Made by a program: the position numbers and the translations under genes. From NCBI RefSeq assembly GCF_014904705.1, contig NZ_JACZCQ010000010.1, positions 1-64,000 on the forward strand: a stretch of 64,000 bases of DNA, written 5' to 3'. This DNA is from Nisaea sediminum (lineage in GTDB: Bacteria > Pseudomonadota > Alphaproteobacteria > Thalassobaculales > Thalassobaculaceae). Shown here piece by piece: positions 29,240-46,990 of this stretch (within the stretch, counting starts at the first letter, position 1; the number at the start of each line of letters is the position of its first letter). The notes below the pieces were generated by a model. That model saw nothing but the letters and a program-made list of their open reading frames with translations. It had not been told where the DNA came from and searched no databases.

Positions 29240-30667
29240 TCATGCCGCGGACGCCGCGGCGGCGACGCTCATGTCCGGCCAGCGCTGGTGCCAGTCGGTC
29301 GCCTTCTCGAAGGCTTGGCCTGCCTGGAAGACCGCCGCCTCGTCGAAATATTTGCCGACGATCTGCATCGAGAGCGGCAGCCCGGACTGGCTGAAGCCGA
29401 TCGGGATCGACATCGCCGGGTTGCCGGTGACGTTGAAGGGCAGGGTCTGCATCGGCCAGTTCAGCGGGAAGCTTTTCTGCGGCGCGTCGATCAGCGGCGC
29501 CGGAGTGAGCGAGCTCGCGGCGATCAGGACGTCGTAGCGCGAGAAGAGGCCGCTATTGACCTCCTCGCAGAGTTCCCGGCGCTGGCGCTGGGCCTGCATC
29601 AGATCCGCCGCCGTCAGGTAGCCGCCGAGAACGATCCGCTCCATTGTCAGCCGGCCGTAATCGAGCGGGCGGGTCTGCAGGTCCTGCTCGTGGATCGCAT
29701 AGGCTTCGGCCAGGAGGATCACCCGTCCGCAATTGTTGTAATCCGCATAGGAGGAGACCGCGGGCACTTCCTCGACTTCCGCGCCGAGATCTTTCAAGAC
29801 GCCCATGGCGGCATCGATCGCGGCCACGGCTTCATCGGAAACACCCTCGGCGTCCCGGTAGAAGGAACGGAGCACGCCGATCTTCATGCCTTTCACTCCG
29901 GCGGTGAGACCTGCACTGAAATCAGGCACGGGTACGTCCGCCGAGGCCGGGTCGAGCGGATCGTATCCCGCGATGCACTGCATGGTGATGGCCGCGTCCT
30001 CGACCGTCTTGGAGAGCGGGCCGCAATGATCGAGCGTATAGGACAGCGGGAAGACGCCACGGCGGCTGACCCGTCCGTAGGTCGGCTTGATCCCGATCGT
30101 GCCGCAATAAGCGGCAGGGCCGCGGATCGAACCGCCGGTATCGGAGCCCATGGCGGTGCGCAGCAGGCCGGCGGCGACGGCCGCCCCGGATCCGCTCGAG
30201 GAGCCTCCGGGCCCGTGCGCCGGGTTCCAGGGGTTGCGGGCCGGCGGGAAGGGCAGGTCGAAGGATGGCCCGCCGAAGGCGAATTCGTGCGTCGCCAGCT
30301 TGCCGATCAACACGCCGCCCGCGTCTTTCAGTTTGGTCGCGCAGACGCTGTCGGCGGCCGGAACGTTGTCGAGGCGCAGTTTTGAATGGCATGTCGTGCG
30401 GATCCCGGCCGTGTCGTAGATATCTTTCAGGCCGTAGGGAATGCCGTGCATCGGACCGCGGTCCATGCCCTCCTTCAGTTCCCTGTCTGCGCGGGCCGCG
30501 TCTTCCAAAGCCCGTTCCTGGGTCACGGTAATGAAGCTGTCGATCTGCCCGTCCAGCGCCGCGATCCGGTCCAGGGTCTCTTCGGTCAGGGCGACGGAGG
30601 TCAAGGTACCGTCTCGCAGGGCCTTGCCCAGTTCGGCGATTGACCGGCTGTCTGCTACGCCTCCCAT
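29240..30667 (-). CDS. Amidase-signature hydrolase 1 (AtzE/GatA-like)
   Basis: A 475-aa enzyme of the amidase signature family. The catalytic Lys lies in GLKDIYDTAG, the cis-Ser region is GPGGSSSGSGAAVAAG, and the nucleophile Ser is in GSDTGGSIRGPAAYCG. No signal peptide. The start overlaps the preceding small AtzG-like gene by 13 bp, a sign of a two-subunit enzyme such as 1-carboxybiuret hydrolase AtzE-AtzG. It is closely similar to amidase 2 at 39894-41315 (shared GPMHGIPYG/F, DPLDPASADVP and VSRRGVFPLS blocks). The substrate cannot be read from sequence. GGAGGG precedes the ATG. Confidence 0.9.
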   Translation of the reverse strand: MGGVADSRSIAELGKALRDGTLTSVALTEETLDRIAALDGQIDSFITVTQERALEDAARADRELKEGMDRGPMHGIPYGLKDIYDTAGIRTTCHSKLRLDNVPAADSVCATKLKDAGGVLIGKLATHEFAFGGPSFDLPFPPARNPWNPAHGPGGSSSGSGAAVAAGLLRTAMGSDTGGSIRGPAAYCGTIGIKPTYGRVSRRGVFPLSYTLDHCGPLSKTVEDAAITMQCIAGYDPLDPASADVPVPDFSAGLTAGVKGMKIGVLRSFYRDAEGVSDEAVAAIDAAMGVLKDLGAEVEEVPAVSSYADYNNCGRVILLAEAYAIHEQDLQTRPLDYGRLTMERIVLGGYLTAADLMQAQRQRRELCEEVNSGLFSRYDVLIAASSLTPAPLIDAPQKSFPLNWPMQTLPFNVTGNPAMSIPIGFSQSGLPLSMQIVGKYFDEAAVFQAGQAFEKATDWHQRWPDMSVAAAASAA

Positions 30668-30882
30668 GACCAGCCCTCCCGTCCGATCGTGCCGGCGACG
30701 AAGATCCCGGCCGGTTCCGAAGCCGCCGTCCGTGGCCGCCTCAGGCCGTCCGCCATTTCGCGTAGGCCGACATAACCCTCGAAGATTGCCTGCTCGCGAT
30801 CTGCGGGCAGAGAGAGGCCAAGGATATCGGTGATTTTCTGGAACGCGATCCGCGCTCCCTTATCGTCCTGAATGTAAGACAT
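30655..30882 (-). CDS. AtzG-like (DUF4089-type) small subunit 1
   Basis: A 75-aa protein starting MSYIQDD, with a helical core containing LSLPADREQAIFEGYVGLREMA (across two stretches) and the end motif EPAGIF. AtzG, the small partner of AtzE, has the same size and the same closing pattern (alanine/leucine-rich helix, then EPA-x-IF). The ATG has GGAGG 7 nt upstream. It overlaps the amidase gene, so the two are translationally coupled. A 12-bp operator-like palindrome lies 74 bp upstream. Only one other copy occurs in the window, at 41326. Confidence 0.72.
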   Translation of the reverse strand: MSYIQDDKGARIAFQKITDILGLSLPADREQAIFEGYVGLREMADGLRRPRTAASEPAGIFVAGTIGREGWSWEA

Positions 30883-30955
30883 GACAGCGCCTCCATATGT
30901 CCGGAATACCCGGGAAAACCGGCGCTTCTCATGCGCCTTATCGTAGAATGGATGG

Positions 30956-30967
30956 ATTGTATCCAAA
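30956..30967 (-). promoter_or_regulatory. Putative GntR operator, copy 1
   Basis: ATTGTATCCAAA, the reverse complement of TTTGGATACAAT, matches the other cluster copies at 11 of 12 positions. It lies 74 bp upstream of the small AtzG-like gene 1. Confidence 0.62.
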
Positions 30968-31303
30968 AAAGCAGCGAGTCTGGCAAGAATTTTGTGCAAT
31001 GCACAAAAAATGATCGTTTTCAGGTTTGGCGATATTCTAAAAAAATAATGAAAATCAATGGGATGATTTTATTTTTGACGCGCCGTGGATTTTTTAAGCA
31101 TGCCGGAAAGGGCGCAATCTGATTAACGATTGTGCACACTGACTGCGGAAATGGGCGTGCGCCCCGAGCTATCGCTCGTGCTCTTTGGGGTCCTAAAATT
31201 ATGGAACGAGTTTTCCAAATGGTGGCTGTAGGTCAGGGAAATGCTAAAGATTCAATTGGCTCGACGGACTTTCTTTGCGTGCATATGAGCTTCAGAAAGA
31301 TAG

Positions 31304-31315
31304 ATTGGATACAAT
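31304..31315 (+). promoter_or_regulatory. Putative GntR operator, copy 2
   Basis: ATTGGATACAAT lies 145 bp upstream of the ABC binding-protein gene and is identical to copy 3 at 41591. The distance suggests a promoter near 31330-31400 with a long 5' untranslated region. Confidence 0.62.
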
Positions 31316-31459
31316 TTATTTGTAATGGCATGGTATTTGCTGTGCGGTAAGGGACTGCAGGGCGATGTGATCGCAACGCAATATCGACATCTTCCGTCCT
31401 GGAGCATGCCGGTAGCAGGATCACACGGGGCGCCTTGCTGACAACAAGGAGGCTTCTCA

Positions 31460-33046
31460 ATGAAAACACTCAAAAGGCTCGCCGCAGCCGTTTCCGTCAC
31501 CGCCGGTCTGGCGATGGCGGGGCAGGCGGCGAACGCGGAATCGGTCCTCCGCGTGGCGATGACCGCCGGGGACATTCCGATCACCATCGGCCAGCCCGAC
31601 CAGGGCTTCGAAGGCTATCGCTTCGTCGGCTACAATCTCTATGACACGCTCGTACTCTGGGACTTGTCCCAGGGTGAGACCGCGGCCGATATCAAGCCGG
31701 GTCTGGCGACGTCCTGGGAAATCGATCCCAAGGACAACAAGCGCTGGCTGATCAAGCTCCGCGAGGGCGTGAAGTGGCATGACGGCTGCGATTTCGTGCC
31801 GGAAGACGTGGTCTGGAACTTCGAGCGCATTTCCAAGGAGGACGCGCCGCATTTCAACGTGAAGCAGTTCGCCGATATCCGGAACCGCACGGGCAACATC
31901 GATCATGTCGAGGTGCTCGGCGCCCATGACATCGCCATCGTGACCAAGGAGCCGGACGCGCTTTTCCCGTACCAGCTCAGCTACTGGTTCATGATCAGCA
32001 AGTGCCGCCTGACCGAACTGAAGAACGATTACGAGGCCTATGCCAAGGCGCCGTCCGGCACCGGCCCCTACAAGTTTGCCAGTGTCGTGCCGCAGGAGCG
32101 TCTCGAACTGGTGAAGAACGAGAGCTACTGGGACCCGAACCGGATCCCGAAGCATGACCGCCTGGTGCTGATCCCGATGCCGGAAGCGACCACCCGTGCC
32201 GCCGCGCTGCTGTCCGGCGAGGTCGATTTCATCGAGGCGCCGTCGCCGGATACCATTCCCCGGCTCGAATCCGCCGGCATGACGATCGTGACCGCGCCCT
32301 ACCCGCACAACTGGTCCTACCAGCTGAACTTCGTCGACGGGAACTTCAAGCACAAGGAAGTCCGCCAGGCCGCGAACTACGCCCTGAACCGTCCGGAGAT
32401 CAAGGCGCTGCTGAACGGCTACATGGTCGAGGGCTACACCAATGTGCCGCCATCGACGCCGTATCACGGCACCCCGTCGGTCAAGTACGAGTACGACCCG
32501 GCGAAGGCGGCCGAGCTGCTGAAGAGCGTCAATTGCTATCCCTGCAAGATCACGCTGGCCATCTCCACCTCCGGGTCCGGCCAGATGCAGCCGCTGCCGA
32601 TGAACGAACTGGTCAAGAGCCAGCTCGATGCGGCCGGCTTCGACACCGAGCTGAAGGTGATGGACTGGAACGCGCTGCTCGATGTCGGGCGTCCGGGCCG
32701 GGAAAAGAACCCGGAGATCGACGGCATCAATATCAGCCGCGCGCTGCAGGATCCGTTCAGCGCCCTGATCCGGCATGTCTACACCAAGCAGCATGCGCCG
32801 AAGGGCTCGAACTGGGGGCACTATTCCAACCCCGCCGTCGATGCCCTGATCGACGAGATCTATCTCTCCTTCGATCCGAAGGTGCGGATGGCAAAGCTCA
32901 CCAAGCTGCATGAGATGATGGTCGAGGATGCCGCCATGCTGTGGGTCGCCCACGATGTGAACCCGCGGGCCATCGCGCCGAACGTCAAAGGCTTCGTGCA
33001 GGCGCAGAGCTGGTTCCAGGACCTGACGCCGATCGTCGTCGAATAA
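31460..33046 (+). CDS. Extracellular solute-binding protein, family 5 (peptide/opine/amide type)
   Basis: A 528-aa periplasmic binding protein with a Sec signal (MKTLKRLAAAVSVTAGLAMA, cleavage near residue 27 after ANA). The family-5 architecture includes YDTLVLWDLSQGETAADIKPGLA and the GTGPYKF motif. It is the first gene of a long operon: binding protein, two permeases, two ATPases, isochorismatase-like hydrolase, asparaginase-like protein and EamA exporter. AAGGAGG precedes the ATG. The ligand is unknown; the neighbouring amidases suggest an amide- or ureide-containing compound. Confidence 0.92.
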   Translation: MKTLKRLAAAVSVTAGLAMAGQAANAESVLRVAMTAGDIPITIGQPDQGFEGYRFVGYNLYDTLVLWDLSQGETAADIKPGLATSWEIDPKDNKRWLIKLREGVKWHDGCDFVPEDVVWNFERISKEDAPHFNVKQFADIRNRTGNIDHVEVLGAHDIAIVTKEPDALFPYQLSYWFMISKCRLTELKNDYEAYAKAPSGTGPYKFASVVPQERLELVKNESYWDPNRIPKHDRLVLIPMPEATTRAAALLSGEVDFIEAPSPDTIPRLESAGMTIVTAPYPHNWSYQLNFVDGNFKHKEVRQAANYALNRPEIKALLNGYMVEGYTNVPPSTPYHGTPSVKYEYDPAKAAELLKSVNCYPCKITLAISTSGSGQMQPLPMNELVKSQLDAAGFDTELKVMDWNALLDVGRPGREKNPEIDGINISRALQDPFSALIRHVYTKQHAPKGSNWGHYSNPAVDALIDEIYLSFDPKVRMAKLTKLHEMMVEDAAMLWVAHDVNPRAIAPNVKGFVQAQSWFQDLTPIVVE

Positions 33047-33060
33047 TCCGAACCCACCGT

Positions 33061-33097
33061 CCCGGGCCCGTTTCCCCTTCCGGGGGGCGGGCCCGGG
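33061..33097 (+). terminator. Intercistronic hairpin after the binding-protein gene
   Basis: CCCGGGCCCG (33061-33070) and CGGGCCCGGG (33088-33097) form a perfect 10-bp GC stem with further CCCC/GGGG pairing in the loop. No T-run follows. It probably protects the upstream message, giving excess binding protein relative to the permeases, as with the hairpin after nrtA. Confidence 0.65.
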
Positions 33098-33170
33098 GAT
33101 CCCCTCAAAGGAAGGATGCCGCCCGGGCCCCCTGCCTCGGAGAGCAGCGTCCATCAGGAGAGATGGCACC

Positions 33171-34127
33171 GTGACGGCCTATATCATCCGACGCCTGCTT
33201 TATGCAGTTCCCATCGCCCTCGGCGTCAGCATCGTGTGCTTCGCCCTGGTTTACATCGCCCCCGGCGACCCGCTGCAGACCCTCTTGCCGGAGGATGCCA
33301 GCGCAGAGACCATCGCGATGGTCAGGAAAGCCTACGGTTTCGACAAGCCGATCCCGGTGCAGTACCTGATCTGGCTCGGCAAGGTCGTGACCGGCGATTT
33401 CGGCATGTCCATCGCCACCGGCCGCCCGGTTCTGGGCGAGATCGTCAAGGCGCTCGGAAACACGGTCCTGCTCGCCGCCGGCGCCGTGCTCATCGCCTTC
33501 ACCCTCGCCTTCATCCTTGGCACGATCGCAGGCTACCGCGTCGGGACGGCGACCGACCGGGCCGTCACCGGCTTTGCCGTCATCGGCGTCAGCGTACCGA
33601 ACTACTGGCTCGGCATCGTCCTCATCATCATCTTCGCCGTCGAGCTGAACGTACTGCCGGCGACCGGCATGGGGCCGCGCGGCTCCGACACCTTCAACCT
33701 CTTCGAATGGAACCACTTCCGCTATCTGCTGATGCCGATGGTCACGCTCTCGCTGATCCCGATCGGCATCATCGCCCGCACCACCCGTTCGGCGGTCGCC
33801 GAGGTGCTGAACCAGGATTTCGTCGAGACGCTCCGGGCCAAGGGCCTGATGGAGTGGGAGATCCTGCTGCATGTGCTGAAGAACGCCCTGCCGCAGGTGC
33901 TCGCCGTCATGGGTCTGCAATTCGGCTACCTGATGGGCGGCTCGATCCTGGTCGAGACCATCTTCACCTGGCCCGGCAGCGGTTTCCTCCTGAACAAGGC
34001 GATCCTGACCCGCGACCTGCCGGTGCTGCAGGGCACGATCCTCGTGCTCGCGATCATCTTCGTCGCCACCAATCTCGTGATCGACCTGCTTCAGACGGCC
34101 GTCGATCCGCGCCTCAAGCGCGGCTGA
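33171..34127 (+). CDS. ABC permease, DppB type
   Basis: A 318-aa inner-membrane permease with about six helices. The conserved N terminus is MTAYIIRRLLYAVPIALGVS and the GDPLQTLLPEDAS region follows. The cytoplasmic ATPase-contact loop includes TLRAKGLMEWEILLHVLKNALP. It starts with GTG at 33171 preceded by AGGAGA; a nearby ATG is out of frame and closes at once. It pairs with the DppC-type permease that follows 19 bp later. Confidence 0.92.
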   Translation: MTAYIIRRLLYAVPIALGVSIVCFALVYIAPGDPLQTLLPEDASAETIAMVRKAYGFDKPIPVQYLIWLGKVVTGDFGMSIATGRPVLGEIVKALGNTVLLAAGAVLIAFTLAFILGTIAGYRVGTATDRAVTGFAVIGVSVPNYWLGIVLIIIFAVELNVLPATGMGPRGSDTFNLFEWNHFRYLLMPMVTLSLIPIGIIARTTRSAVAEVLNQDFVETLRAKGLMEWEILLHVLKNALPQVLAVMGLQFGYLMGGSILVETIFTWPGSGFLLNKAILTRDLPVLQGTILVLAIIFVATNLVIDLLQTAVDPRLKRG

Positions 34128-34146
34128 ACCGAAGGGACGGGCTGAC

Positions 34147-35055
34147 ATGACCGACATCACAGCGAACAGCATGCAGGCCGAGGCGGCGGCGGAGCAGGGT
34201 GCTCCGGCGCTCAAGGTCCGGAGTTACTGGCAGACCGTCGGATACCGGCTGCGCTACGACTACATGACCCTGTTCTTCGGCGCCGTGGTCGCCCTGATCA
34301 TCCTCTCCGCCATCTTCGCGCCTCTCATCGCGCCGATGGATCCCTACGAGACCAGCCTGATCAAGCGGCTGAAGCCGATGCTTTACCAGGGGCATCTCCT
34401 CGGCACGGACGAGCTCGGTCGCGATATCCTCTCCCGGATGCTCTATGGCGGGCGGATCTCGCTCGCGATGGGCATCCTGCCGGTGCTCGCCGCGACCCTG
34501 ATCGGCGGGTCGCTCGGCGTCATCGCCGGTTTTGTCGGCGGCCGGACAAACATGGCGATCATGCGCACGGTCGACGTCTTCTACGCCTTCCCGTCGATCC
34601 TCTTGGCGGTGGCGATCTCCGGCGCGCTCGGCGGCGGCATCTTCAACGGTATGGCCTCGCTGACGCTGGTCTTCATTCCGCCGCTCTGCCGCATCGCGGA
34701 GACCGCGACCTCGCAGGTCCGCAACCTCGATTTCGTCGAGGCGGCGCGGGCGACCGGCGCCGGCACGTTCAACATCATCCGCGTGCACGTGCTCGGCAAC
34801 GTGCTGGGGCCGATCCTGATCTACGCCTCCAGCATGGTCAGCGTCTCGATCCTGCTGGCCTCCGGCCTCTCCTTCCTCGGCCTTGGGGTGACCCCGCCGG
34901 AGCCGGACTGGGGGCTGATGCTGAACACCCTGCGCGGCGCCATCTACATCAATCCCATGGTCTGCGCCCTGCCGGGCTTCGCCATTCTGATCACCTCGAT
35001 CTGTTTCAATCTGGTCAGCGACGGTCTGCGCTCGGCCATGGACGTCCGGATGTAA
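34147..35055 (+). CDS. ABC permease, DppC type
   Basis: A 302-aa permease with the oligopeptide-permease N-terminal domain (LRYDYMTLFFGAVVALIILSAIF across the first helix region), then LGTDELGRDILSRMLYGGRISL, a hallmark of DppC/OppC/NikC. The contact loop is FVEAARATGAGTFNIIRVHVL. It forms the second half of the membrane channel and is followed after 11 bp by the ATPase genes. Confidence 0.93.
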   Translation: MTDITANSMQAEAAAEQGAPALKVRSYWQTVGYRLRYDYMTLFFGAVVALIILSAIFAPLIAPMDPYETSLIKRLKPMLYQGHLLGTDELGRDILSRMLYGGRISLAMGILPVLAATLIGGSLGVIAGFVGGRTNMAIMRTVDVFYAFPSILLAVAISGALGGGIFNGMASLTLVFIPPLCRIAETATSQVRNLDFVEAARATGAGTFNIIRVHVLGNVLGPILIYASSMVSVSILLASGLSFLGLGVTPPEPDWGLMLNTLRGAIYINPMVCALPGFAILITSICFNLVSDGLRSAMDVRM

Positions 35056-35066
35056 GGAGCGGAGAC

Positions 35067-36182
35067 ATGAGCATGACAGAGACAAAAGCCGCCCTTACCG
35101 AAGTCGATACCCGCGACGCCCGCGATCGTGGCGGCGAAGCGCAGCCGATGCTGATCGCCCGCGGCCTGAAGAAGCACTTCCCGATCACCGGTGGCGTGCT
35201 GAACCGCACGGTCGGGCATGTGCGGGCGGTCGACGGGGTCAGCTTCACGGTGATGAAGGGCGAGACCCTCGGCGTGGTCGGCGAGTCCGGATGCGGCAAA
35301 TCCACGCTCGCCCGCCTGTTGATGCACCTGATCGTTCCGGACAGCGGAGAGCTGATCTTCGACGGAGACGGCGTCGGTCAGAAGGACGGCCTGGAGATCC
35401 GCGACATGCGGCGTCTGATGCAGATGGTCTTCCAGGACAGCTATTCCTCGCTCAACCCGCGCATGCCGGTGGAGGATTCCATCGCCTACGGCAAGACCGT
35501 GCACGGCGCGAGCAAGGCGGCGGCGAAGGAGGCGGCGCGGGAGCTGATGAAGAAGGTCGGCCTCGAGCCGAGCCTCTTCGGCCCGCGTTATCCGCACGAG
35601 CTTTCCGGCGGCCAGAAGCAGCGCATCAACATCGCCCGCGCGCTGGTGCTGGAGCCCCGCGTGGTGATCCTCGACGAGGCGGTCTCCGCCCTCGACAAGT
35701 CGGTCGAGGCGCAGGTGCTGAACCTGCTGCGCTATCTGAAGGACCATTTCAACCTGACCTATGTCTTCATCTCCCACGACCTGAACGTGGTGCAGTATGT
35801 GAGCGACCGGGTGCTGGTGATGTATCTCGGCGAGGTGGTCGAGATCGGACCGGTGGACGAGATCTACGAGAACCCGAAGCACCCCTATACGGCAGCGCTG
35901 CTGGCCTCGCGTCTCTCGATGGATCCGGACGATCGGGTCGAGGAACCGCCACTGGTCGGCGATCCGCCGAACCCGATCAATCCGCCGTCCGGCTGCCGTT
36001 TCCGCACGCGCTGCGACTTCGCGGAGAAGATCTGCGAGGTGGACTCACCGTCCCTGCCGGAGACCGACGGACCGAAAGCGCATGTCTGCGCCTGCCACAT
36101 GTTCGTGCCGAAATCCGGTCATTCGAAGGCCGCCGGTCTCGAGGCGCCGGCGACGAAGACTCTCGCGAGGAGCGCATCATGA
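35067..36182 (+). CDS. ABC ATPase, DppF/OppF type
   Basis: A 371-aa ATPase with Walker A GESGCGKST, signature LSGGQKQR and Walker B VVILDEAVSALD. Here DEA replaces the usual DEP. The C-terminal oligopeptide-transporter domain ends in a cysteine-rich stretch (CRFRTRCDFAEKIC) that in the family binds a [4Fe-4S] cluster. Its stop overlaps the next ATPase gene by ATGA. Confidence 0.93.
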   Translation: MSMTETKAALTEVDTRDARDRGGEAQPMLIARGLKKHFPITGGVLNRTVGHVRAVDGVSFTVMKGETLGVVGESGCGKSTLARLLMHLIVPDSGELIFDGDGVGQKDGLEIRDMRRLMQMVFQDSYSSLNPRMPVEDSIAYGKTVHGASKAAAKEAARELMKKVGLEPSLFGPRYPHELSGGQKQRINIARALVLEPRVVILDEAVSALDKSVEAQVLNLLRYLKDHFNLTYVFISHDLNVVQYVSDRVLVMYLGEVVEIGPVDEIYENPKHPYTAALLASRLSMDPDDRVEEPPLVGDPPNPINPPSGCRFRTRCDFAEKICEVDSPSLPETDGPKAHVCACHMFVPKSGHSKAAGLEAPATKTLARSAS

Positions 36183-37201
36183 GCATGGAAACCTCCGCGC
36201 CGCTGGTCTCGGTCAAGGACCTCAATGTCAAATTCGTCAGCCGCGAGTCGACGGTGAACGCGGTCAACGACGTGAACCTCACGGTCAATCATGGCGAGGT
36301 GCTTTGCATCATCGGGGAGTCCGGCTCCGGCAAGAGTGTCAGCATGCGGGCGCTGATGCGCCTGCTGCCGGAACGGCGGACGAAGATCACCGGCAAGCTC
36401 GAGGTCGACGGGCAGGACGTGCTCGCGCTGAAGGGGAAAGAACTCTCCGCATTCCGCGGTGGCAAGGCCGCGATGATCTTCCAGGAGCCGATGACGGCGC
36501 TCGATCCGGTCTTCACCATCGGCAACCAGATCGCCGAGACGGTCTGCCGGCACGAGGGCTGCTCGAAAGAGGATGGGCTGGCCCGGGCGCTGGAGCTGCT
36601 CGAACTGGTGAAGGTGCCGTCGGCGGCACGCCGTCTGAAAGCCTATCCGCACGAGCTCTCCGGCGGTCTCCGCCAGCGCGCGATGATCGCGCTCGCGCTC
36701 TCCTGCCGTCCTAAGCTGTTGCTTGCGGACGAGCCGACCACTGCGCTCGACGCCACGGTGCAGATCCAGGTCCTGATCCTGATGCGCAAGCTGCAGCAGG
36801 AAATGGGCATGGGCATGATCTTTGTTACCCACGACCTCGGTGTCGCTGCGGAGATCGCCGACAGAGTGGCCGTGATGTATGCCGGCCGCATCGTCGAGAG
36901 CGGAACGGTGCAGGAGGTCCTGACCGACCCGAAGCACCCCTATACCAAAGGCATGCTGTCCTCGACCGTACACGGCAACATGCGCGGCAAGGACATCGAG
37001 GCCATTCCCGGCAGCCCGCCCGACCTGCGCTCGTTGCCGACCGGATGCAGCTTCGCACCGCGCTGCCCGAACGCGGACGACGGATGCCGCGCCCAGCTCC
37101 CGCCCGAGGTCACGCTCGGTCCGGGGCGGATCGCACGCTGCTTCAAGCTGGACGACGCGCCGCCCGCGGCAAAGCCCGAACGGGAGAGCGCGCTGGCCTG
37201 A
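36179..37201 (+). CDS. ABC ATPase, DppD/OppD type
   Basis: A 340-aa ATPase with Walker A GESGSGKSV, signature LSGGLRQR and Walker B LLLADEPTTALD. The C-terminal region with CSFAPRCPNADDGC is the cluster-binding motif of the family. The start at 36179 (MSMETSAP) overlaps the previous gene; a longer in-frame reading from 35291 is a shadow of the first ATPase. The two ATPases form the heterodimeric motor. Confidence 0.93.
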   Translation: MSMETSAPLVSVKDLNVKFVSRESTVNAVNDVNLTVNHGEVLCIIGESGSGKSVSMRALMRLLPERRTKITGKLEVDGQDVLALKGKELSAFRGGKAAMIFQEPMTALDPVFTIGNQIAETVCRHEGCSKEDGLARALELLELVKVPSAARRLKAYPHELSGGLRQRAMIALALSCRPKLLLADEPTTALDATVQIQVLILMRKLQQEMGMGMIFVTHDLGVAAEIADRVAVMYAGRIVESGTVQEVLTDPKHPYTKGMLSSTVHGNMRGKDIEAIPGSPPDLRSLPTGCSFAPRCPNADDGCRAQLPPEVTLGPGRIARCFKLDDAPPAAKPERESALA

Positions 37202-37228
37202 AAACACAACAGAAAGGGGAGAGTGAAG

Positions 37229-37939
37229 ATGCACAAGATCGAGATACCGCAGCGTGTCGTGGAGTCCGTCGTCGCCCGGCGAGGCACGGCCCATCCCTTT
37301 GCAGATCTGGACCCCGCGAAGACCGCGCTGGTCGTGGTCGACCTGCAGAACGGTTTCATGATGGACGGTGTTGCCCATGCGCTCTGCACCATGGCGCGGG
37401 AGATCGTGCCGAACGTGAACCGGCTGGCCTCCGCCGTCCGCGAGACCGGCGGGCAGGTTTTCTGGATCCAGAACACCCATGACGAGTCCTGCCTCGAGAG
37501 CTGGTCGAACCTGCATGCGATGACGCTGCCGGAGAAGACCGCCAAGCGCATCGAGTCCATGAGCGAGGGCACCCTGGGGCACGAGCTCTGGGCCGATCTC
37601 GACGTGAAGCTGGACGACATGAAGGTGCTCAAATACCGCTACTCGGCTTTCTTGCCCGGCTATTCGGATCTGCCGGACATCCTGCGCGCGAGAGGGCTCG
37701 ACACGGTTCTGATCACCGGGACGGTCACGAATGTCTGCTGCGAATCCTCGGCGCGCGACGCCATGATGACGAACTTCAAGACCATCATGGTGACCGACGG
37801 CAATGCCGCGACCAGCGACGAGGAGCACAACAGCTCGCTCATCAACTTCTATCTGACGTTCGGTGATATCATGAGCACCGACGAAGTCATCGACTGCCTC
37901 ACCAAGAACGCTGCGGCCACCCGCTCCGCGGCGGAATAA
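37229..37939 (+). CDS. Isochorismatase-family cysteine hydrolase
   Basis: A 236-aa cytoplasmic hydrolase. The triad of the family is visible: D38 (VVVDLQNGF), K135 (LKYRYSAF) and C170 (TGTVTNVCCESSARDA). A second Cys, C171, directly follows the nucleophile where Val is usual. Relatives hydrolyse ureido and amide bonds (RutB, N-carbamoylsarcosine amidase, biuret hydrolase). It does not carry the sequence pattern I recall for biuret hydrolase, so I do not assign a substrate. The ATG at 37229 has GGGGAG upstream; it follows the ATPase gene by 27 bp. Confidence 0.88.
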   Translation: MHKIEIPQRVVESVVARRGTAHPFADLDPAKTALVVVDLQNGFMMDGVAHALCTMAREIVPNVNRLASAVRETGGQVFWIQNTHDESCLESWSNLHAMTLPEKTAKRIESMSEGTLGHELWADLDVKLDDMKVLKYRYSAFLPGYSDLPDILRARGLDTVLITGTVTNVCCESSARDAMMTNFKTIMVTDGNAATSDEEHNSSLINFYLTFGDIMSTDEVIDCLTKNAAATRSAAE

Positions 37940-37968
37940 TTCCGTAATACCAACCTGATAGGTACAAA

Positions 37969-38964
37969 ATGAGCAAACCCAAGGTCGCGGTGATCGGCAC
38001 CGGCGGTACCATTGCGTCGATCGGCAAGACCCCGCTCGACATCCTCGATTACGGCGCCAACAAGAAGATGATCGGCATCGAGGAGATCATCGCGATGTTC
38101 CCGATCGTGCACGAGGTCGCCGAAATCGTCCCGGTGCCCTATCAGGCGATCCCGAGCCCGTCGGTCGGCTTCAAGGAATGGCGCGAGCTGGTGCTGAAGA
38201 TCGATGAATTGGCAAAGGACCCGGATCTCGACGGGATCGTCGTGACACACGGCACGGCCTCACTTGAGGAAACGGCCTACGCGCTGCACCTGACCGTGAA
38301 GGCCGACATCCCGGTCGTCGTGGTCGGCTCCCAGCGGCCGTCGAGCGCGCTCTCGACCGATGCCGGCTTCAACCTGGTGAACGGAATCCGCACCGCGGGC
38401 TCGCCTGACGCGAAGGGCATGGGCGTCATGACCCTGCTCAACGACGAGATCCAGTGCGCCCGAGAAGTGACCAAGACTTCGACCTACCGCATGCAGACCT
38501 TCCGTACGCCCGACTTCGGATGTCTCGGCCATGCGGATGGGGATGCGGTCGCGTTCTACCGCAAGCCGCTGCGCAAACACGCGCCCGACACGGAATTTGA
38601 TATCCGCACGATCGACGCCATGCCGCGGGTCGACATCGCCTATGCCTATACCGGTTCGGACGGCACTGCTTGCCGGGCCTTCCTGGAGGCCGGGGCCCAG
38701 GGGATCGTGTCCGCGGGCTTCGCGCCGGGCTTCTGCGGGCCGGGCGACGAGGAGGTCCTGCGCGAGGCGGTCAAGAAGGGCGTCGTGGTCGTGCAGTCGA
38801 CGCGCGCCGGCAGTGGCCGGACCTTCACGAGCACGAAGATGAAGGAATGCGGCTTCCTGATCGCGGACAACCTCAACCCGCAGAAAGCTCGCATCCTGCT
38901 CTCCCTCGCCCTCACGGTGACCAAGGATCCGGACGAGATCGCGAGGATCTTCCAGACCTACTGA
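37969..38964 (+). CDS. Asparaginase-family protein with altered substrate-binding residues
   Basis: A 331-aa protein with the L-asparaginase fold. T14 in TGGTIAS (first catalytic Thr) and T96 in THGT are kept, as is K169 (REVTKTST). The Asp that follows the second Thr in true asparaginases (HGTDT) is A97 here (HGTASLEET), and the Ser-Gln-Asp contact motif is replaced by SPS (about 63-65). In the family those Asp and Gln residues bind the substrate amino group. No signal peptide. The true substrate is probably an amide without a free alpha-amino group (inference). Confidence 0.85.
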   Translation: MSKPKVAVIGTGGTIASIGKTPLDILDYGANKKMIGIEEIIAMFPIVHEVAEIVPVPYQAIPSPSVGFKEWRELVLKIDELAKDPDLDGIVVTHGTASLEETAYALHLTVKADIPVVVVGSQRPSSALSTDAGFNLVNGIRTAGSPDAKGMGVMTLLNDEIQCAREVTKTSTYRMQTFRTPDFGCLGHADGDAVAFYRKPLRKHAPDTEFDIRTIDAMPRVDIAYAYTGSDGTACRAFLEAGAQGIVSAGFAPGFCGPGDEEVLREAVKKGVVVVQSTRAGSGRTFTSTKMKECGFLIADNLNPQKARILLSLALTVTKDPDEIARIFQTY

Positions 38965-38975
38965 CGGGGCGGGCG

Positions 38976-39893
38976 ATGTCAACGGACCCCGCTCCAGCCT
39001 TGCCGGCGCGCATCGTCAACCCGGATGCGCGCACCGGCATTCTGCTGACTCTCGTCGGCCTGATCGTGTTTTCCATCCTGAATGGGGTGGTAAAGGCGCA
39101 GACCGAACTTTTCCCGGTCGTGCAGATCATGTTCTTCCGCAACGCTTTCGCGCTCCTGCCGCTTGCGCTCTTTATCGGCCTGACGGCGGGCTGGAAGTCT
39201 GTCCGGACCGAGCGCCCGGGGTTGCATGTGCTGCATGCGCTCTTGGTCAGCGGGGCGATCGGGTTCATTTTTCTCGGTTACAGCAGCCTGCCGCTGGCGG
39301 ACGCGACGGCGATCAACTTCGCGGCGCCGCTGGTGGTCTGCGTGCTCTCGGTACCGCTTCTGAAAGAACCCGTCGGGCCGCTCAAGTGGTTCGCGGTGCT
39401 GATCGGTTTCGTCGGCGTGATGATCATGGTGAGGCCCGGCGGCGACGTGATCCGCGAGGGGGCGATCTACAGTTTCGCGGGCACGGTGATGAGTGCTTGC
39501 GGCCTGTTGCTGGCGCGCCATCTCAGCCGGTTCGACGCGACGACGACGATCGTCTTCCTCTTCATGGCGCTGTCATCGGCCATGATGCTGCCGCTGCTGT
39601 TCCTCTACTGGGTGACACCGACGCCGCTCCAGCTGGCGGGGCTGGTTGCCATGGGGGTCGCGTCCGGCGTCGCGCAATATATCACCACGCGCGCGCTGTT
39701 CCATGCATCCGCCGCGACGATCGCACCGCTGGGGTACACGAAGATGATCTGGGCGCTCCTGATCGGCTATTTCGCCTTCGGGGATTGGCCGGCGCCGGTG
39801 GTGCTTGCCGGCGCCGGCCTGGTGCTGCTCAGCACCTGGGTTGTCTTTCGAAAGGAAAGCGCTTCCTCCCGGCGCCGTCCCGCCGAGCAGTGA
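38976..39893 (+). CDS. EamA/DMT family transporter 1
   Basis: A 305-aa protein with ten predicted helices in two EamA repeats, starting MSTDPAPALPAR, then GILLTLVGLIVFSILNGVVK. EamA proteins are usually exporters of metabolites or amino-acid-like compounds. It is the last gene of the transporter operon, 11 bp after the asparaginase-like gene. Its stop codon abuts the stop of the convergent amidase-2 gene (TGATCA). It is related to the second EamA gene at 41668. Confidence 0.88.
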   Translation: MSTDPAPALPARIVNPDARTGILLTLVGLIVFSILNGVVKAQTELFPVVQIMFFRNAFALLPLALFIGLTAGWKSVRTERPGLHVLHALLVSGAIGFIFLGYSSLPLADATAINFAAPLVVCVLSVPLLKEPVGPLKWFAVLIGFVGVMIMVRPGGDVIREGAIYSFAGTVMSACGLLLARHLSRFDATTTIVFLFMALSSAMMLPLLFLYWVTPTPLQLAGLVAMGVASGVAQYITTRALFHASAATIAPLGYTKMIWALLIGYFAFGDWPAPVVLAGAGLVLLSTWVVFRKESASSRRRPAEQ

Positions 39894-41315
39894 TCACTCG
39901 GCGGCGAGCGCTCCTGCCGCGGTGAGCGGCGGACGCCGGCTGCGCCAGTCGCTCGCCTGCTCGTAGGCGGCCCCGACACGGAACACCATGGCCTCGTCGA
40001 ACGGCTTGCCGACCACCTGGAGGGAGATCGGCAGACCGTCGGTGGTGAAGCCGCAGCAGACGGACATGGCCGGACTGCCGGTGACGTTGAACGGCACCGT
40101 CATGTATCCCGAAAGCGCCAGCGGATCGTTCGGCTGTGCGTCGAAGCGACCGGCCGGGAGCGAGGTGCAGGGGGCGATGACAGCATCGTATTTGCCGAAC
40201 ATCTCGGCATTGAACTGCATGGTCATCTCCCGGCGCATGCGCAGGGCCTCGACATAGTCGGAGCCGCGCACGAAGGCGCCCGCCATCAGCCGCTCGCGGG
40301 TCGGGCGGCCATAGAGTTCCGGCCGTTCCATCAGATCCTTCTCGTGGATCGCATAGCATTCGGAGAGGATGATCATGCGGCCGCAGGCGTGGAAGAGCTC
40401 GTGCGACGGCAGGGTGACGCTCTCGACCGTCGCGCCCTCGGCACGGAGCGTATCGAGCGCCTCCGTGAGCGCCGCGCGGACTTCCGGATTGGTGTGCTCG
40501 TCCTCGTCGAGCCAGTTGGCGACATAGGCAATCTTGAGGCCTTTCGCGCCATCCTTCAGGCCGGCTGTGTAGTCGGAAAGCGGTACGTCCGCCGATGCCG
40601 GGTCGAGCGGGTCGAAGCCCGCCATGGCCTGCAGCGCGATCGCCGAATCCTCGACGCTCCAGCTGAGCGGACCGCAATGGTCCATGGTGAAGGAGAGCGG
40701 GAAGACGCCGCGGCGGCTGACCCGGCCGTAGGTCGGCTTGATGCCGACCGTGCCGCAATAGGCCGCCGGGCCCCGGATCGATCCGCCGGTGTCGGAGCCG
40801 AGCGCCATCCGCGTCATGCCGGCGGCGACGGCCGCGCCGGACCCGGAGGAGGACCCGCCCGGCACATGCTCGACGTTCCAGGGATTGCGGGCCGGCGGAA
40901 ACAGCGTCTCCTCGCTCGGACCGCCGGTGGCGAATTCGATGGTCGCGCATTTCCCGAGCAGCACCGCGCCGCCATCCAGCAGCCTCTGCACCGAATGGGC
41001 GTTCGCTTCCGGGATCACGTCCGGGCGCAGCTTCGACTGGCAGGAGGTCAGGATCCCGGCCGTATCGTAGATGTCCTTAGCGCCGAACGGGATACCGTGC
41101 ATCGGGCCGAGGTCGGTCCCGGACTTTAGCTCCTCCTCGGCTTTCTTCGCGCGGTCCAGTGCCAGTTCGGCGGTCACCGTGTTGAAGGCCTTCAGGGTGC
41201 CGTTGAGCTCGGAGATCCGGTCCAGAGCATCCCGGGTCGCCTCGACCGGCGAGAGGGAGCGGTCGCGATAGGCCTTGCCCAGTTCGGCGATGGAAAGTTC
41301 CTTGATGTCGGACAT
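39894..41315 (-). CDS. Amidase-signature hydrolase 2 (AtzE/GatA-like)
   Basis: A 473-aa amidase. The catalytic Lys is in GAKDIYDTAG, the cis-Ser region is PGGSSSGSGAAVAAG, and the nucleophile is in GSDTGGSIRGPAAYCG. It is similar to amidase 1 along its whole length, so the two are paralogues. It is preceded by its own small AtzG-like gene (10 bp gap), which suggests a second heteromeric hydrolase with a different specificity. No signal peptide. Function beyond amide hydrolysis is not readable. Confidence 0.9.
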   Translation of the reverse strand: MSDIKELSIAELGKAYRDRSLSPVEATRDALDRISELNGTLKAFNTVTAELALDRAKKAEEELKSGTDLGPMHGIPFGAKDIYDTAGILTSCQSKLRPDVIPEANAHSVQRLLDGGAVLLGKCATIEFATGGPSEETLFPPARNPWNVEHVPGGSSSGSGAAVAAGMTRMALGSDTGGSIRGPAAYCGTVGIKPTYGRVSRRGVFPLSFTMDHCGPLSWSVEDSAIALQAMAGFDPLDPASADVPLSDYTAGLKDGAKGLKIAYVANWLDEDEHTNPEVRAALTEALDTLRAEGATVESVTLPSHELFHACGRMIILSECYAIHEKDLMERPELYGRPTRERLMAGAFVRGSDYVEALRMRREMTMQFNAEMFGKYDAVIAPCTSLPAGRFDAQPNDPLALSGYMTVPFNVTGSPAMSVCCGFTTDGLPISLQVVGKPFDEAMVFRVGAAYEQASDWRSRRPPLTAAGALAAE

Positions 41316-41325
41316 GTCGGCGCTC

Positions 41326-41538
41326 CTAACGGGTTTCGATCGCGCGGGTGATCGTGTCGAGGAAAAAGGCGTTGGACGGTTCCAGCGTGGCCGGCCGGGG
41401 CCGGTTGCGGACCATCTCCGACCATTTCAGGACATTCCTGTAGGTGCCGAGCATGGTTTCCTCGCGATCTGCGGGGATCGTGAGGCCGGATCGCGCGATG
41501 ATCGCGTCGTATTGCTGCTTGATGCTTGCGTCGTCCAT
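41326..41538 (-). CDS. AtzG-like (DUF4089-type) small subunit 2
   Basis: A 70-aa protein starting MDDASIKQQYDA, with LTIPADREETMLGTYRNVLK and the EPSNAFF end motif. It shares the pattern L-x-(I/L)PADRE...RPRxAxxEPxxxF with small subunit 1, so the two are paralogues, each placed before its own amidase. The ribosome binding site is weak. Two operator-like sequences lie 53-92 bp upstream. Confidence 0.7.
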   Translation of the reverse strand: MDDASIKQQYDAIIARSGLTIPADREETMLGTYRNVLKWSEMVRNRPRPATLEPSNAFFLDTITRAIETR

Positions 41539-41590
41539 TGGTGAAGCCCATCCCTGTTTGTTCTTTCGGGAAAGATTACCAAGACTCATT

Positions 41591-41630
41591 ATTGGATACA
41601 ATCAGGGTTTTGTGTTTGATTTGGATGCAA
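41591..41630 (+). promoter_or_regulatory. Putative GntR operator, copy 3 plus a degenerate repeat
   Basis: ATTGGATACAAT at 41591-41602 is identical to copy 2. A second, weaker element TTGGATGCAA lies at 41621-41630, and ATTGGATG follows at 41631. The repeats lie between the amidase-2 unit and the end of the second EamA gene, so they most likely control the amidase-2 unit. Confidence 0.62.
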
Positions 41631-41667
41631 ATTGGATGTGAATCGGAACGAAAGGGAAGGTCGTCGC

Positions 41668-42624
41668 CTATGCCTTGTTGCTGGCGGCCCGCTTTTCCGC
41701 GCGCACCGTGTAGAGCGAGGTGGCGATGATCAGGGTGGCGCCGGCTGCAGTCGCCAGGTCAGGCGTTTCGCCGAAGATGAGGAAGCCGATCAGGGCGGCG
41801 AAAACCAGCCTCGTATAGTCCATCGGCGCCACTGCCGAGGCCTCGCCTTCCTTGAAGCCCTGGATATTGGCGAGCTGGCCGAACACGGACAGCACCCCTA
41901 TCGCCGCCATCACCAGCCATTCCCTGGGGCTCGGGGTGACCCAGTACATGATTGTCGGCGGAACCATGAGAACGCCGACGAGAATGGCCTGATAGCTGAG
42001 GATCGTCACGGAGCGGTCGAATTGCGAGACCTTGCGGATGATGACCATCACAGCGGCCGCAGATGCCGCGCCGGCGACGGCGAAGAGGGAATAGAGATTG
42101 AGCCCGTCGGGGCCGGGTTGAACCATCACGAGCACGCCGGCAAAGCCGATCAGGACGGCGAACCAGCGCCGCGGTCCGGCGACCTCCCTGAGCAGGATCA
42201 GTGCGAAGATCGTCACGAACAGGCTCTTTGCGAAGCCGAGCGCCGTGGCTTCGGCGAGCGGGAGATGCACGACCGCCGTGAAGCCGCAGGTCATGGCGAT
42301 GAGCGCGAACAGCACGCGGGTGAGGTGCAGGGGCAGGTGGTTGGTCTTCAGAATGTCCGGAAATCCGGCGATCAGGACCGGCATGACCGTGAAGGTCATC
42401 ACGATCTGGCGGAAGAGCAGGATCTGGACGACCGGGATTGTATCACCGATCGACTTGATGAGCGCGGTCATGACGGTGAAGAAGAGTCCGGCGATCACGA
42501 CCCATATCGCACCTCGCGCATTGCCCGGAAGGGCCAGGAAGGGAGCGGTGACCGGCTTCAGGATGTTGTCGGAAAAAGATGATAACCTATTGAGGTATAA
42601 TAAGTTAATTGACGGGTTCCGCAT
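41668..42624 (-). CDS. EamA/DMT family transporter 2
   Basis: A 318-aa ten-helix transporter with two EamA repeats (for example AIWVVIAGLFFTVMTALIK, then GQLANIQGFKEGEASAVAP). I take the ATG at 42624; an in-frame TTG at 42660 is an alternative. It is divergent from the GntR gene, with the operator copy 4 in between. It is likely an exporter or importer of the same compound class as EamA 1. Confidence 0.85.
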   Translation of the reverse strand: MRNPSINLLYLNRLSSFSDNILKPVTAPFLALPGNARGAIWVVIAGLFFTVMTALIKSIGDTIPVVQILLFRQIVMTFTVMPVLIAGFPDILKTNHLPLHLTRVLFALIAMTCGFTAVVHLPLAEATALGFAKSLFVTIFALILLREVAGPRRWFAVLIGFAGVLVMVQPGPDGLNLYSLFAVAGAASAAAVMVIIRKVSQFDRSVTILSYQAILVGVLMVPPTIMYWVTPSPREWLVMAAIGVLSVFGQLANIQGFKEGEASAVAPMDYTRLVFAALIGFLIFGETPDLATAAGATLIIATSLYTVRAEKRAASNKA

Positions 42625-42738
42625 TCTGAAGTCGGACGGTTTTTCGGGTTCGCTGACCAATGCGGCGGATCCTTGCTGGCGATGGCCGATGCAGATTGCG
42701 CGGGCGCGCGCAAATGGCCGTTCGGTCTGAATTACAAG

Positions 42739-42750
42739 ATTGGATCCAAT
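42739..42750. promoter_or_regulatory. Putative GntR operator, copy 4 (perfect palindrome)
   Basis: ATTGGATCCAAT is a perfect 12-bp palindrome between the divergent EamA 2 and GntR genes. It is 11/12 identical to ATTGGATACAAT. This position suggests autoregulation of gntR and control of EamA 2. Confidence 0.65.
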
Positions 42751-42940
42751 ATTTGCAGAAATGTCATCCGACTGTCTACCTTCCGCGTAGGGGGTGTGTT
42801 ATGGTGCTCTTCGCGAACCGAGATTTCGGCGCGACGGGAGAGACGCTACCGGCCGGCAGGAGATATGTCGGCCTCGAAGTACAAAGAATGCAAAGGCATG
42901 GCGTCTGTTGGCCGAGCCTGAAATGAATGGGGTGATGATT

Positions 42941-43660
42941 ATGTCAACGCGTGGTCAATCGGTCGTTCGCGCCTTGCGGGACAAGGTGCTGGACGGCGAG
43001 TACGCGCCGGGCGCGCGGCTCAACGAGATCGAAATATCCAATTCGCTGAATGTATCCCGGACGCCCGTGCGCGCCGCTCTGGCGATCCTCGCGACCGAGG
43101 GACTGCTGGATTACGTTCCGAACAGCGGCTACGTGGTCCGCTGCTACTCGGTTCAGGATATCGAGGGCGTCTACGCGGCGCGCTCCGTCCTGGAAGGCCT
43201 GGCGGCGCGGACTGTTGCGGAGAAGGGGATCTCGGACCGGGTCCGCGGCCTTCTCCACAAGAATCTCGCCGAGACCGAGGTCCTGCTGGACGAAACCGAT
43301 TGGAGCGACAGGCTCCGGGACGAATGGGGGCGGCTGAACGAGGAGTTCCACGAGGCGATCTTCGCCGACGCGGGGAACCGCCATCTGAGCGAACTGATCA
43401 GCAAGTCCCGGTCCATACCGCTCCTGAAAGGTGTGAAGTTCCGCTGGCACGATCTCGACACGCTGGCCACGTCCTGCTCCGACCATGCGGAACTCTTCGA
43501 TGCCATCGCCAACGGTCAGGGTACCCGGGCCGAACATCTGGCGCGCGAGCACGTCTATCAGGCGGGGCGCCGTCTGGTCGCCAACTGGCGCCGGGCCGGA
43601 GCCGACGGGACCTCGGCGGCCGCACGCCGGCCGGTCCGCAAGGTTTCCCGCGCGGCCTGA
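42941..43660 (+). CDS. GntR-family regulator with FCD domain
   Basis: A 239-aa regulator. The N-terminal winged helix (about 1-72) contains LRDKVLDGEYAPGARLNEIE and the recognition region SRTPVRAALAIL. The C-terminal FCD domain (about 80-220; ARSVLEGLAARTV, EFHEAIFADAGN, and a later HAELFDAI) holds the histidines that bind a metal or ligand in this subfamily. I prefer the ATG at 41 of the 429xx block (42941, GGGGTG upstream) over that at 42923. It is the only regulator within the amidase/ABC cluster and the most likely reader of the four palindromes. Confidence 0.88.
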   Translation: MSTRGQSVVRALRDKVLDGEYAPGARLNEIEISNSLNVSRTPVRAALAILATEGLLDYVPNSGYVVRCYSVQDIEGVYAARSVLEGLAARTVAEKGISDRVRGLLHKNLAETEVLLDETDWSDRLRDEWGRLNEEFHEAIFADAGNRHLSELISKSRSIPLLKGVKFRWHDLDTLATSCSDHAELFDAIANGQGTRAEHLAREHVYQAGRRLVANWRRAGADGTSAAARRPVRKVSRAA

Positions 43661-43865: not shown

Positions 43866-45732
<1,867 letters not shown>

Positions 45733-45736
<4 letters not shown>

Positions 45737-46017
45737 GCCGCGCCGACGATCCGGATCACAAGCTCGCAGAGGCAGCCCGGACCCGTCGTAAGAGACGTGA
45801 GATCTGGGAACGCGAAGGAGAGCGCTCCATCGCACGGAATCTGGCGATGATCGGTGCGCTCGGCTGGACCATTGTGGTGCCGACGCTGCTCGGTCTCTTC
45901 ATCGGCAGGTGGCTCGATAGCGCGTTTGCCTCGGGGCTCTTCTGGACTTTGGGACTTCTTGTCCTGGGACTTGCCCTCGGCTGCCGGCTCGCCTGGACAA
46001 GGATGCATCACGAATGA
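45733..46017 (+). CDS. atpQ: AtpQ, AtpI-like membrane protein of N-ATPase
   Basis: A 94-aa protein with a charged N-terminal helix (about 1-35, rich in R, K and E) and two membrane helices (LAMIGALGWTIVVPTLLGLF; LFWTLGLLVLGLALGC). It resembles AtpI, the assembly factor of F-ATPases. Position between atpC and atpR defines it as AtpQ of the N-ATPase operon type. Confidence 0.85.
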
Positions 46018-46310
46018 ACATGCTGACGCCGGAACTTCTCGGAACCATCGCCGTTGCCGCGGTCGCGGGTGTCGCTGCCGGCCTTGCCTATTTCCGTGCC
46101 CTGGCACGGACCACCAGCGCCCTGACCGGCAGCGGAAGCCCGGCCGTCTATGTCGGGATGACCCTCCTGCGTCTCGGCGGGATCGCCGTCTTTCTTGTTG
46201 TTCTGGTCCAGTTCGGTGCGCTGGCCCTGCTTGCCGGCTTCGGCGGCTTTCTGTTCGCGCGCATGCTGTCCACCAGAAACCCGCCGGACAGCGACGGGGA
46301 GGACCGCTGA
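46014..46310 (+). CDS. atpR: AtpR, membrane subunit specific to N-ATPases
   Basis: A 98-aa protein with three predicted helices, including VYVGMTLLRLGGIAVFLVVL with an arginine inside the second membrane segment. AtpR is found only in N-ATPase operons. The buried Arg has been proposed to meet the carboxylates of the c ring; this is as I recall the family description. It overlaps atpQ by 4 bp and atpB by one base (TGATG). Confidence 0.85.
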   Translation: MNMLTPELLGTIAVAAVAGVAAGLAYFRALARTTSALTGSGSPAVYVGMTLLRLGGIAVFLVVLVQFGALALLAGFGGFLFARMLSTRNPPDSDGEDR

Positions 46311-46981: not shown

Positions 46982-46990
46982 GGAGGTATC

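Follow-up and report, generated by a model that had tools for sequence, protein, structure and literature searches.

The window analysed here, a 64 kb stretch of the 5.02 Mb genome of the marine bacterium Nisaea sediminum (contig NZ_JACZCQ010000010.1, positions 1 to 64,000), harbours at positions 29240-43660 a block of fourteen genes, the identities of which, apart from two small genes, were assigned by Pfam and NCBIfam scans of the window proteins. From left to right, the amidase gene amiA and the small gene smA lie on the minus strand, followed on the plus strand by genes for the solute-binding protein (SBP), two permeases and two ATPases of an ATP-binding cassette (ABC) importer, an isochorismatase-type hydrolase, an asparaginase-like protein and a first EamA transporter (eam1); the second amidase gene amiB, a second small gene smB and a second EamA gene (eam2) are again on the minus strand, and a gene for a GntR/FCD regulator (gntR) completes the block on the plus strand. 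An earlier reading of this DNA from its letters alone (the sequence-only reading) had listed the importer, the isochorismatase-type and asparaginase-like proteins, two EamA transporters, two amidases and a GntR regulator, all of which are present according to the scans. The span of 30655 to 43660 that it gave captured a real block but was wrong as to its start, as amiA (29240-30667) lies to the left of it.

Conservation of the block and its shared operator

Conservation was assessed by tblastn of the window proteins on related loci, and by an asparaginase search (E <= 1e-40) of 36 genomes of the order, nine of which, including that of N. sediminum, carry the complete block as far as their contigs go. 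The same order and strands are found in eight other genomes (G016, G018 (L015), G019 (L014), G020 (L016), G024, G025 (L017), G026 and G027), the contig of G020 ending before smA-amiA. Nisaea nitritireducens DSM 19540 carries the block (L015), and the asparaginases of the Nisaea relatives at this locus are 98% and 91% identical to that of the window; the congener G017 gave no asparaginase match. In a tenth genome, the metagenome-assembled genome G011, amiA to the asparaginase gene lie on one contig and an asparaginase gene followed directly by gntR lies on another; the two asparaginase pieces are 96% identical over their overlap, and therefore a variant without eam1-amiB-smB-eam2 seems to exist. 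As for the other genomes, 13 contain only an asparaginase relative of about 50% identity and 13 have no match. No other protein of the cluster (E <= 1e-4) was found in 12 regions around the ~50% relatives, some of which lie on short contigs; these regions represent 11 of the 13 genomes (G013 and G035 being left out) and one paralogue in G011. The gene block is thus real and conserved.

An inverted repeat, TTGKATMCAA, which the sequence-only reading had missed and which is now defined as a shared operator, is present in all four promoter regions of the block. A motif search placed it as TTGTATCCAA at 30957-30966 in the smA-amiA promoter region, as TTGGATACAA in those of the SBP gene (31305-31314) and of smB-amiB (41592-41601), and as TTGGATCCAA at 42740-42749 between eam2 and gntR. 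The four sites in 64 kb compare with 0.03 expected, and none of 100 shuffles contained as many, although this chance value is partly circular because the pattern was defined after the sites had been seen. Across ten loci, window included, 30 exact sites were found in 230,531 bases as against 0.15 expected from 20 first-order Markov simulations, the loci being related and hence not independent draws. Exact sites occur at smA, the SBP gene and smB in each of the ten loci that holds those regions, and all nine loci tested (the window and eight relatives) carry a site with at most one mismatch in the eam2-gntR region; no exact site was found upstream of gntR in the short piece L019 from G011. In more distant loci the sites persist where the adjoining small proteins have only 46-74% identity. 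The presence of the repeat in all four promoter regions and its conservation in relatives indicate that the block is very probably co-regulated as one regulon, and the position of gntR (42923-43660; PF00392 and PF07729; several in-frame starts in an open reading frame (ORF) from 42794) suggests that the local GntR/FCD protein is probably what binds the repeat. Chance grouping of the genes was rejected on the basis of the order kept in eight other genomes and of the recurrence of the operator; the sequence-only reading had held that the grouping would be accidental if the genes were unlinked in related genomes and had no shared expression, and they are linked.

In the genome of N. sediminum as a whole, ATTGKATMCAAT occurs exactly four times, three of them in the block, and with one mismatch allowed 14 sites are found, four of them in the block, as compared to none for the reversed pattern. 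The sole exact 12-mer operator match outside the block, ATTGTATACAAT at G000:C3:775678, is perhaps the site of another FCD regulator, and some 3.4 kb separate a one-mismatch operator-like site, ATTGTAAACAAT, from the urease alpha gene (C1:236188 and C1:239641). An occurrence of TTGGATCCAA in the related locus L061 was set aside as it lies within a DctM gene. When the operator strings were looked up in the open literature, TTGGATCCAA alone had matches among those listed, mostly human or animal work by title.

Hydrolases, small proteins and transporters

The block encodes four hydrolases, which belong to three superfamilies: two are amidases, one is of the isochorismatase type and one of the asparaginase type. 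The amidase-signature proteins AmiA (AtzE/GatA-like, 475 aa, PF01425 E 7.1e-107) and AmiB (39894-41315, 473 aa, PF01425 E 4.2e-107) are 55% identical to each other and each belong to their own clade with 100/100 support in a tree of 19 rows, in which AmiA is sister to an amidase of Rhizobium tumorigenes (95/95). Residues K81, S156/S157 and S180 of AmiA, which we take to be catalytic, are invariant in all 11 rows of the alignment. The best solved relative of AmiB is GatA (2df4, E 2.1e-85), with 6c62_A at E 3.8e-70. An assignment as AtzE or GatA was rejected, as AmiA and AmiB score 312.1 and 311.6 bits against a cut-off of 425.75 for AtzE (TIGR02715) and also remain below the NCBIfam cut-off for GatA. 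The possibility that either represents the GatA of this genome was ruled out on the latter score and because the best Amidase match of the genome is located outside the block, at C3:58412-59752, with GatC adjoining at C3:59842-60054. Elsewhere in the genome (L012, 1393-3411) a further amidase reaches 994 bits against PRK06565, for which the cut-off is 575.

Each amidase gene is accompanied by a small gene on the same strand: smA (30655-30882, 75 aa), which overlaps the start of amiA and is kept beside it in relatives, and smB (41326-41538, 70 aa), which is kept in relatives beside amiB. Close to their C-termini the small proteins all carry an invariant Glu-Pro. No match to PF13318 (AtzG-like) or to an NCBIfam model was obtained for them, 22 aligned members having been scanned by Pfam, nor was PF13318 matched in the N. 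sediminum genome, the same search giving matches in 10 of 143 genomes; a PDB sequence search for AtzG relatives of the small proteins returned nothing relevant. By profile comparison with hhalign, 20 SmA and SmB proteins together aligned to nine PF13318 sequences from other genomes, with L139 left out of the ten loci, at a probability of 93 (E 3.1e-7, score 37.8), as compared to scores of at most 17.5 for 50 column shuffles and 8.6 for the reversed profile, and SmA alone reached a probability of 83.2. The comparison with GatC gave a probability of 42.9, for which hhalign is insensitive because AtzG against GatC gives no signal (probability 0.1). The predicted model of SmB (mean predicted local distance difference test score 79.3, predicted template modelling score 0.54) has two confident helices (3-17 and 23-44) and a low-confidence tail; Foldseek found no match at E <= 0.001 among 350,542 chains and eight at E <= 10, the first being 6c62_C, a 66-residue chain in an entry on the AtzE complex. 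SmA and SmB are therefore most likely remote AtzG relatives, so that sequences missed by Pfam would also count among the AtzG-type small subunits; the amidase/small-subunit pairs proposed by the sequence-only reading thus find support in hhalign and a hint in the fold search. By analogy with the published AtzEG complex, as described in PMC6219798, each small protein may bind its amidase.

The isochorismatase-fold cysteine amidohydrolase (37229-37939, plus strand, PF00857 E 2.6e-34; a GTG start at 37223 is possible) has RutB, the ureidoacrylate amidohydrolase, as its best solved relative (E 1.3e-18), and its Asp-Lys-Cys triad aligns with that of RutB; fold and triad are also those of the biuret hydrolase BiuH. 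It was not filed as either, having 89.3 bits against a cut-off of 377.95 for RutB (TIGR03614) and 49 against 370 for BiuH. These likenesses bear on whether the block could be a disguised pathway for cyanuric acid, biuret or pyrimidines, built from AtzEG and a biuret hydrolase or from Rut-type enzymes: the superfamilies are the same, the AtzEG-like pairs resemble AtzE-AtzG of Pseudomonas sp. ADP (a 1-carboxybiuret amidohydrolase) in being an amidase-signature enzyme with its own small subunit encoded just upstream, and the hydrolase is closest to RutB among solved structures. PMC6219798 also describes clusters of atzG, atzE and atzH, which in some groups lie next to ABC transporters and other amidases. 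The block differs, however, in AmiA and AmiB remaining below the AtzE cut-off, in small proteins to which PF13318 is blind, and in combining two amidase/small-protein pairs with an asparaginase-like and an isochorismatase-type enzyme, and neither AtzH (PF11533, with a control match in Caulobacter) nor RutA (TIGR03612, the same search matching 7 of 14 control genomes, two of them over the cut-off) was matched in the genome. Three residues past the catalytic Lys the window hydrolase has Tyr, as does RutB, where BiuH has Lys145 (by counting, unaligned to BiuH), a residue that is apparently essential to BiuH according to PMC5806882. AtzD and AtzF are not among the block genes, no genome-wide search having been made for either. 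The statement of the sequence-only reading that no urease gene is present holds for the locus, but not for the genome, which has one elsewhere. With the scores for AtzE, RutB and BiuH also below their cut-offs, a disguised pathway of this kind is very improbable.

The importer comprises a family-5 solute-binding protein (SBP_bac_5, 31460-33046, PF00496 E 3.7e-74), permeases of OppB/NikB type (33171-34127, NCBIfam Opp2B E 4.4e-84, below its cut-off) and OppC type (34147-35055, PF00528 and PF12911) and two ATPases (35067-36182 and 36179-37201, both with PF00005 and PF08352, the second within an ORF of 35291-37201 and starting at 36179), all on the plus strand, and is Opp/Nik-like by NCBIfam. The EamA proteins, which belong to the drug/metabolite transporter (DMT) group, are encoded at 38976-39893 (plus strand; PF00892 in an ORF of 38670-39893, the start at 38976 being taken from the sequence) and 41668-42660 (minus strand; PF00892 E 5.9e-28, the true start probably being later than the TTG at 42660), and match a carboxylate/amino acid/amine transporter model below its cut-off.

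An asparaginase-like enzyme without Asp90

The asparaginase-like amidohydrolase (37969-38964, plus strand; PF00710/PF17763, N domain E 1.6e-51, C domain E 3.4e-30) belongs to the fold family of the type II L-asparaginase AnsB of E. coli, with which it shares ~39% identity and, by residue mapping, Thr12, Ser58, Thr89 and Lys162. It differs from AnsB in having Ala for Asp90, Pro for Gln59, Phe at position 248, a residue other than Glu at 283, and no signal peptide by eye, the assignments at 283 and Tyr25 being alignment-dependent; this changed substrate pocket had escaped the sequence-only reading. A filing as type II asparaginase was rejected at 299.3 against a cut-off of 314.3. Ala at position 90 is also found in the four other cluster members that were aligned, out of nine other genomes. 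In a tree of 39 rows, hand-chosen for the most part because they resemble the window protein, so that the counts describe that set only, 34 rows are without Asp90 and five have it; 32 of the 34 make up a single clade (96/97), apart from which two Ti-plasmid proteins lost Asp90. Among the 34, Thr12 is not kept in three (L190, L195 and L198) and Ser58 not in two (L187 and L190).

PMC6667453 describes Asp90, like Lys162, as invariant among L-asparaginases, and holds Asp90 to be critical for binding the substrate. In the structure shown in PMC7567106, the counterparts of Asp90, Gln59 and Glu283 bond the alpha-amino group of a substrate, and the counterpart of Ser58 holds its alpha-carboxyl group. 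As Ser58 is kept and Asp90 and Gln59 are changed, a carboxylate and an amide should still fit the pocket, which should however no longer recognise a free alpha-amino group, and the step is likely to act on a half-amide that has none. The same residues count against ordinary scavenging of peptides and amino acid amides, in which an oligopeptide importer and amidases would feed a true asparaginase acting on Asn or Gln while EamA proteins export surplus amino acids. The Opp/Nik-like importer, the asparaginase score near the type II cut-off and the transporter model matched by the EamA proteins would all suit such a role, but Asp90, described as invariant in all L-asparaginases in PMC6667453, is Ala here and is lost across the whole 32-row clade, making this explanation improbable. 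Nor is peptide use known to involve AtzG-type subunits or a RutB-like hydrolase.

A different account of the altered pocket is that the block takes up an Asn or Gln derivative substituted on nitrogen (N-acyl, N-carbamoyl, sugar-linked or Amadori-type), the loss of Asp90 and Gln59 making room for the blocked alpha-nitrogen and the other hydrolases removing the substituent. FraE of the Salmonella fructose-asparagine pathway, compared by its published description, aids the use of an N-substituted Asn according to PMC4941530. In Agrobacterium sp. 33MFTa1.1, SIS-domain, ROK and PfkB-family genes share a stretch of 25 kb with a D90G relative, and isochorismatase-fold relatives include N-carbamoylsarcosine amidohydrolase (1nba). 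Pfam scans, however, recognised no kinase or sugar isomerase among the genes of the block, and the RutA and hydantoinase neighbourhoods described below fit ring-opened amides better; we regard this account as unlikely, giving it roughly one chance in five.

Asparaginases of the same family, of ~50% identity and without D90, were also seen with 2-hydroxyacid dehydrogenase and ROK genes in L061 (5814-12511) and L059 (9843-12976), in L061 additionally with a thiamine pyrophosphate (TPP) enzyme and a tripartite ATP-independent periplasmic (TRAP) permease, and belong to a second, different system. On an Azospirillum ramasamyi plasmid (L206, 911-11258) a D90A asparaginase gene comes after Rieske-type and SRPBCC genes, and an intradiol dioxygenase gene is close at hand, which suggests an aromatic amide route.

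Genomic contexts and the proposed role

Relatives outside the block offer clues to the substrate. In Terrarubrum flagellatum (L101) an asparaginase relative of 62% identity shares an operon with a different type of ABC importer, followed by genes for a major facilitator superfamily protein, an amidase, an 81-aa protein, an isochorismatase, two polysaccharide-deacetylase-type proteins (one PuuE-like and far below its cut-off, the other narrowly missing that of Pfam), an N-carbamoylputrescine-amidase-like protein (below its cut-off) and flavin reductases; a RutA over its cut-off is divergent from this operon. In G109 (L183) a relative of 79% identity is convergent with an adjoining RutA, also over its cut-off. 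Three genomes in which amidase, asparaginase and ABC genes are found together belong to two other families, one represented by G124 and G227 and the other by G206: in G124 (L118) the set is divergent from a fused hydantoinase/oxoprolinase, and in G227, at a contig start, only the two ATPases of the importer are present. On a Ti plasmid a D90G protein is encoded downstream of hydantoinase A and B. The related cluster of Rhizobium tumorigenes plasmid pRt932 (L103) lies beside acetamidase and urease genes and has a related importer (permeases 58-63%, ATPases 66-68%), a small protein, the amidase sister to AmiA, a cysteine hydrolase and an asparaginase-domain protein; it differs in having a MarR rather than a GntR regulator, three further amidases, the acetamidase and the urease, and no EamA gene is annotated in the stretch, the gene table of which may be incomplete. 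In Thioclava the small protein and amidase genes are divergent from the importer, and an Asp/Glu-racemase-family gene, a flavin reductase gene and a DMT gene are present. Importers with permeases at 53-66% identity occur in 4 of 20 regions (L107, L110, L118 and L123) around the best amidase matches in the class. The common thread of these contexts appears to be cyclic amides opened to half-amides. In L127, L128 and L132 a related family-5 importer is followed by an Asp/Glu-racemase-family gene, urea transporter genes being close by in Rhizobium johnstonii pRL12. The Asp/Glu-racemase family includes relatives of hydantoin and allantoin racemases.

We consider it reasonably probable that the block is one substrate-inducible nitrogen-scavenging regulon, by means of which a multi-amide or ring-opened compound is imported and deamidated step by step. 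In this scheme the GntR/FCD protein would control the four transcripts via TTGKATMCAA and release the DNA when the substrate or an intermediate binds; the family-5 importer would take up a compound that contains several C-N amide bonds and probably stems from a cyclic amide, imide or ureide; the two AtzE-AtzG-type amidases would each cleave a different amide bond; removal of a carbamoyl or terminal amide nitrogen would fall to the RutB-type cysteine hydrolase; the asparaginase-like enzyme would free ammonia from a half-amide with a carboxylate and without a free alpha-amino group; and the EamA proteins would pass the carbon skeleton or a surplus across the membrane. The amide-nitrogen role put forward by the sequence-only reading fits the enzymes as well as some of the relatives' contexts (RutA, hydantoinase/oxoprolinase, urease and acetamidase).

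Several observations weigh against this interpretation. None of the genes in the block was recognised as encoding a ring-opening enzyme, and the genome search for RutA was negative. Twelve of the 16 out-of-family genomes with a close asparaginase relative show no such gene set (of the other four, three link the asparaginase to amidase and ABC genes and one to RutA), Asp90-less relatives also lie beside Rieske dioxygenase, 3-oxoadipate, sugar isomerase/kinase and TPP enzyme/TRAP genes, and the related importers of Dinoroseobacter, R. johnstonii and Haematobacter have an Asp/Glu-racemase-family gene beside them and no annotated amidase. In G011 the asparaginase gene leads directly to gntR without eam1, amiB, smB and eam2, on a piece (L019) without an exact operator. 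SmB alone aligned weakly with AtzG (hhalign probability 47.1), and its fold match to 6c62_C is a hint only, given an E of 3.4 and a root mean square deviation of 6.2 (probability 0.28, template modelling scores 0.56/0.59). The Glu283 column of the asparaginase alignment is unstable, with Lys in two alignments and a gap in a third, and loss of Asp90 could mean low activity because this residue is also part of the catalytic hydrogen-bond network, as stated in PMC6667453.

A more specific proposal, to which we give slightly less than even chances, is that the block represents an undescribed pathway for a natural cyclic amide, imide or ureide, in which the Asp90-less clade would be a half-amidase acting on mono-amides of non-amino dicarboxylates, together with two divergent AtzEG-type amidases and a GntR operator. 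The gene set of the block was not found in the open literature searched. The sequence-only reading had called the system a candidate undescribed one; that description does not extend to AtzG-AtzE clusters with transporters, already known from PMC6219798, and what is new within the literature searched is the operator, the D90-less asparaginase and the way in which the genes are combined. What began as a guess based on gene names has become a regulon with an operator motif and boundaries, testable in the cultured relative N. nitritireducens DSM 19540. Proteins of the Asp90-less clade are annotated as asparaginases in the plasmid records examined, and were the proposed half-amidase activity true, a group of proteins now bearing that name would do something else.

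The left neighbour of the block encodes a Crp-like regulator, and an N-ATPase operon (beta, epsilon, AtpR, B/delta, alpha and gamma genes; 43869-50391) starts directly to its right. Both seem to lie outside the unit, because among the related loci the crp query matched only L014 and the ATPase beta-subunit query none.

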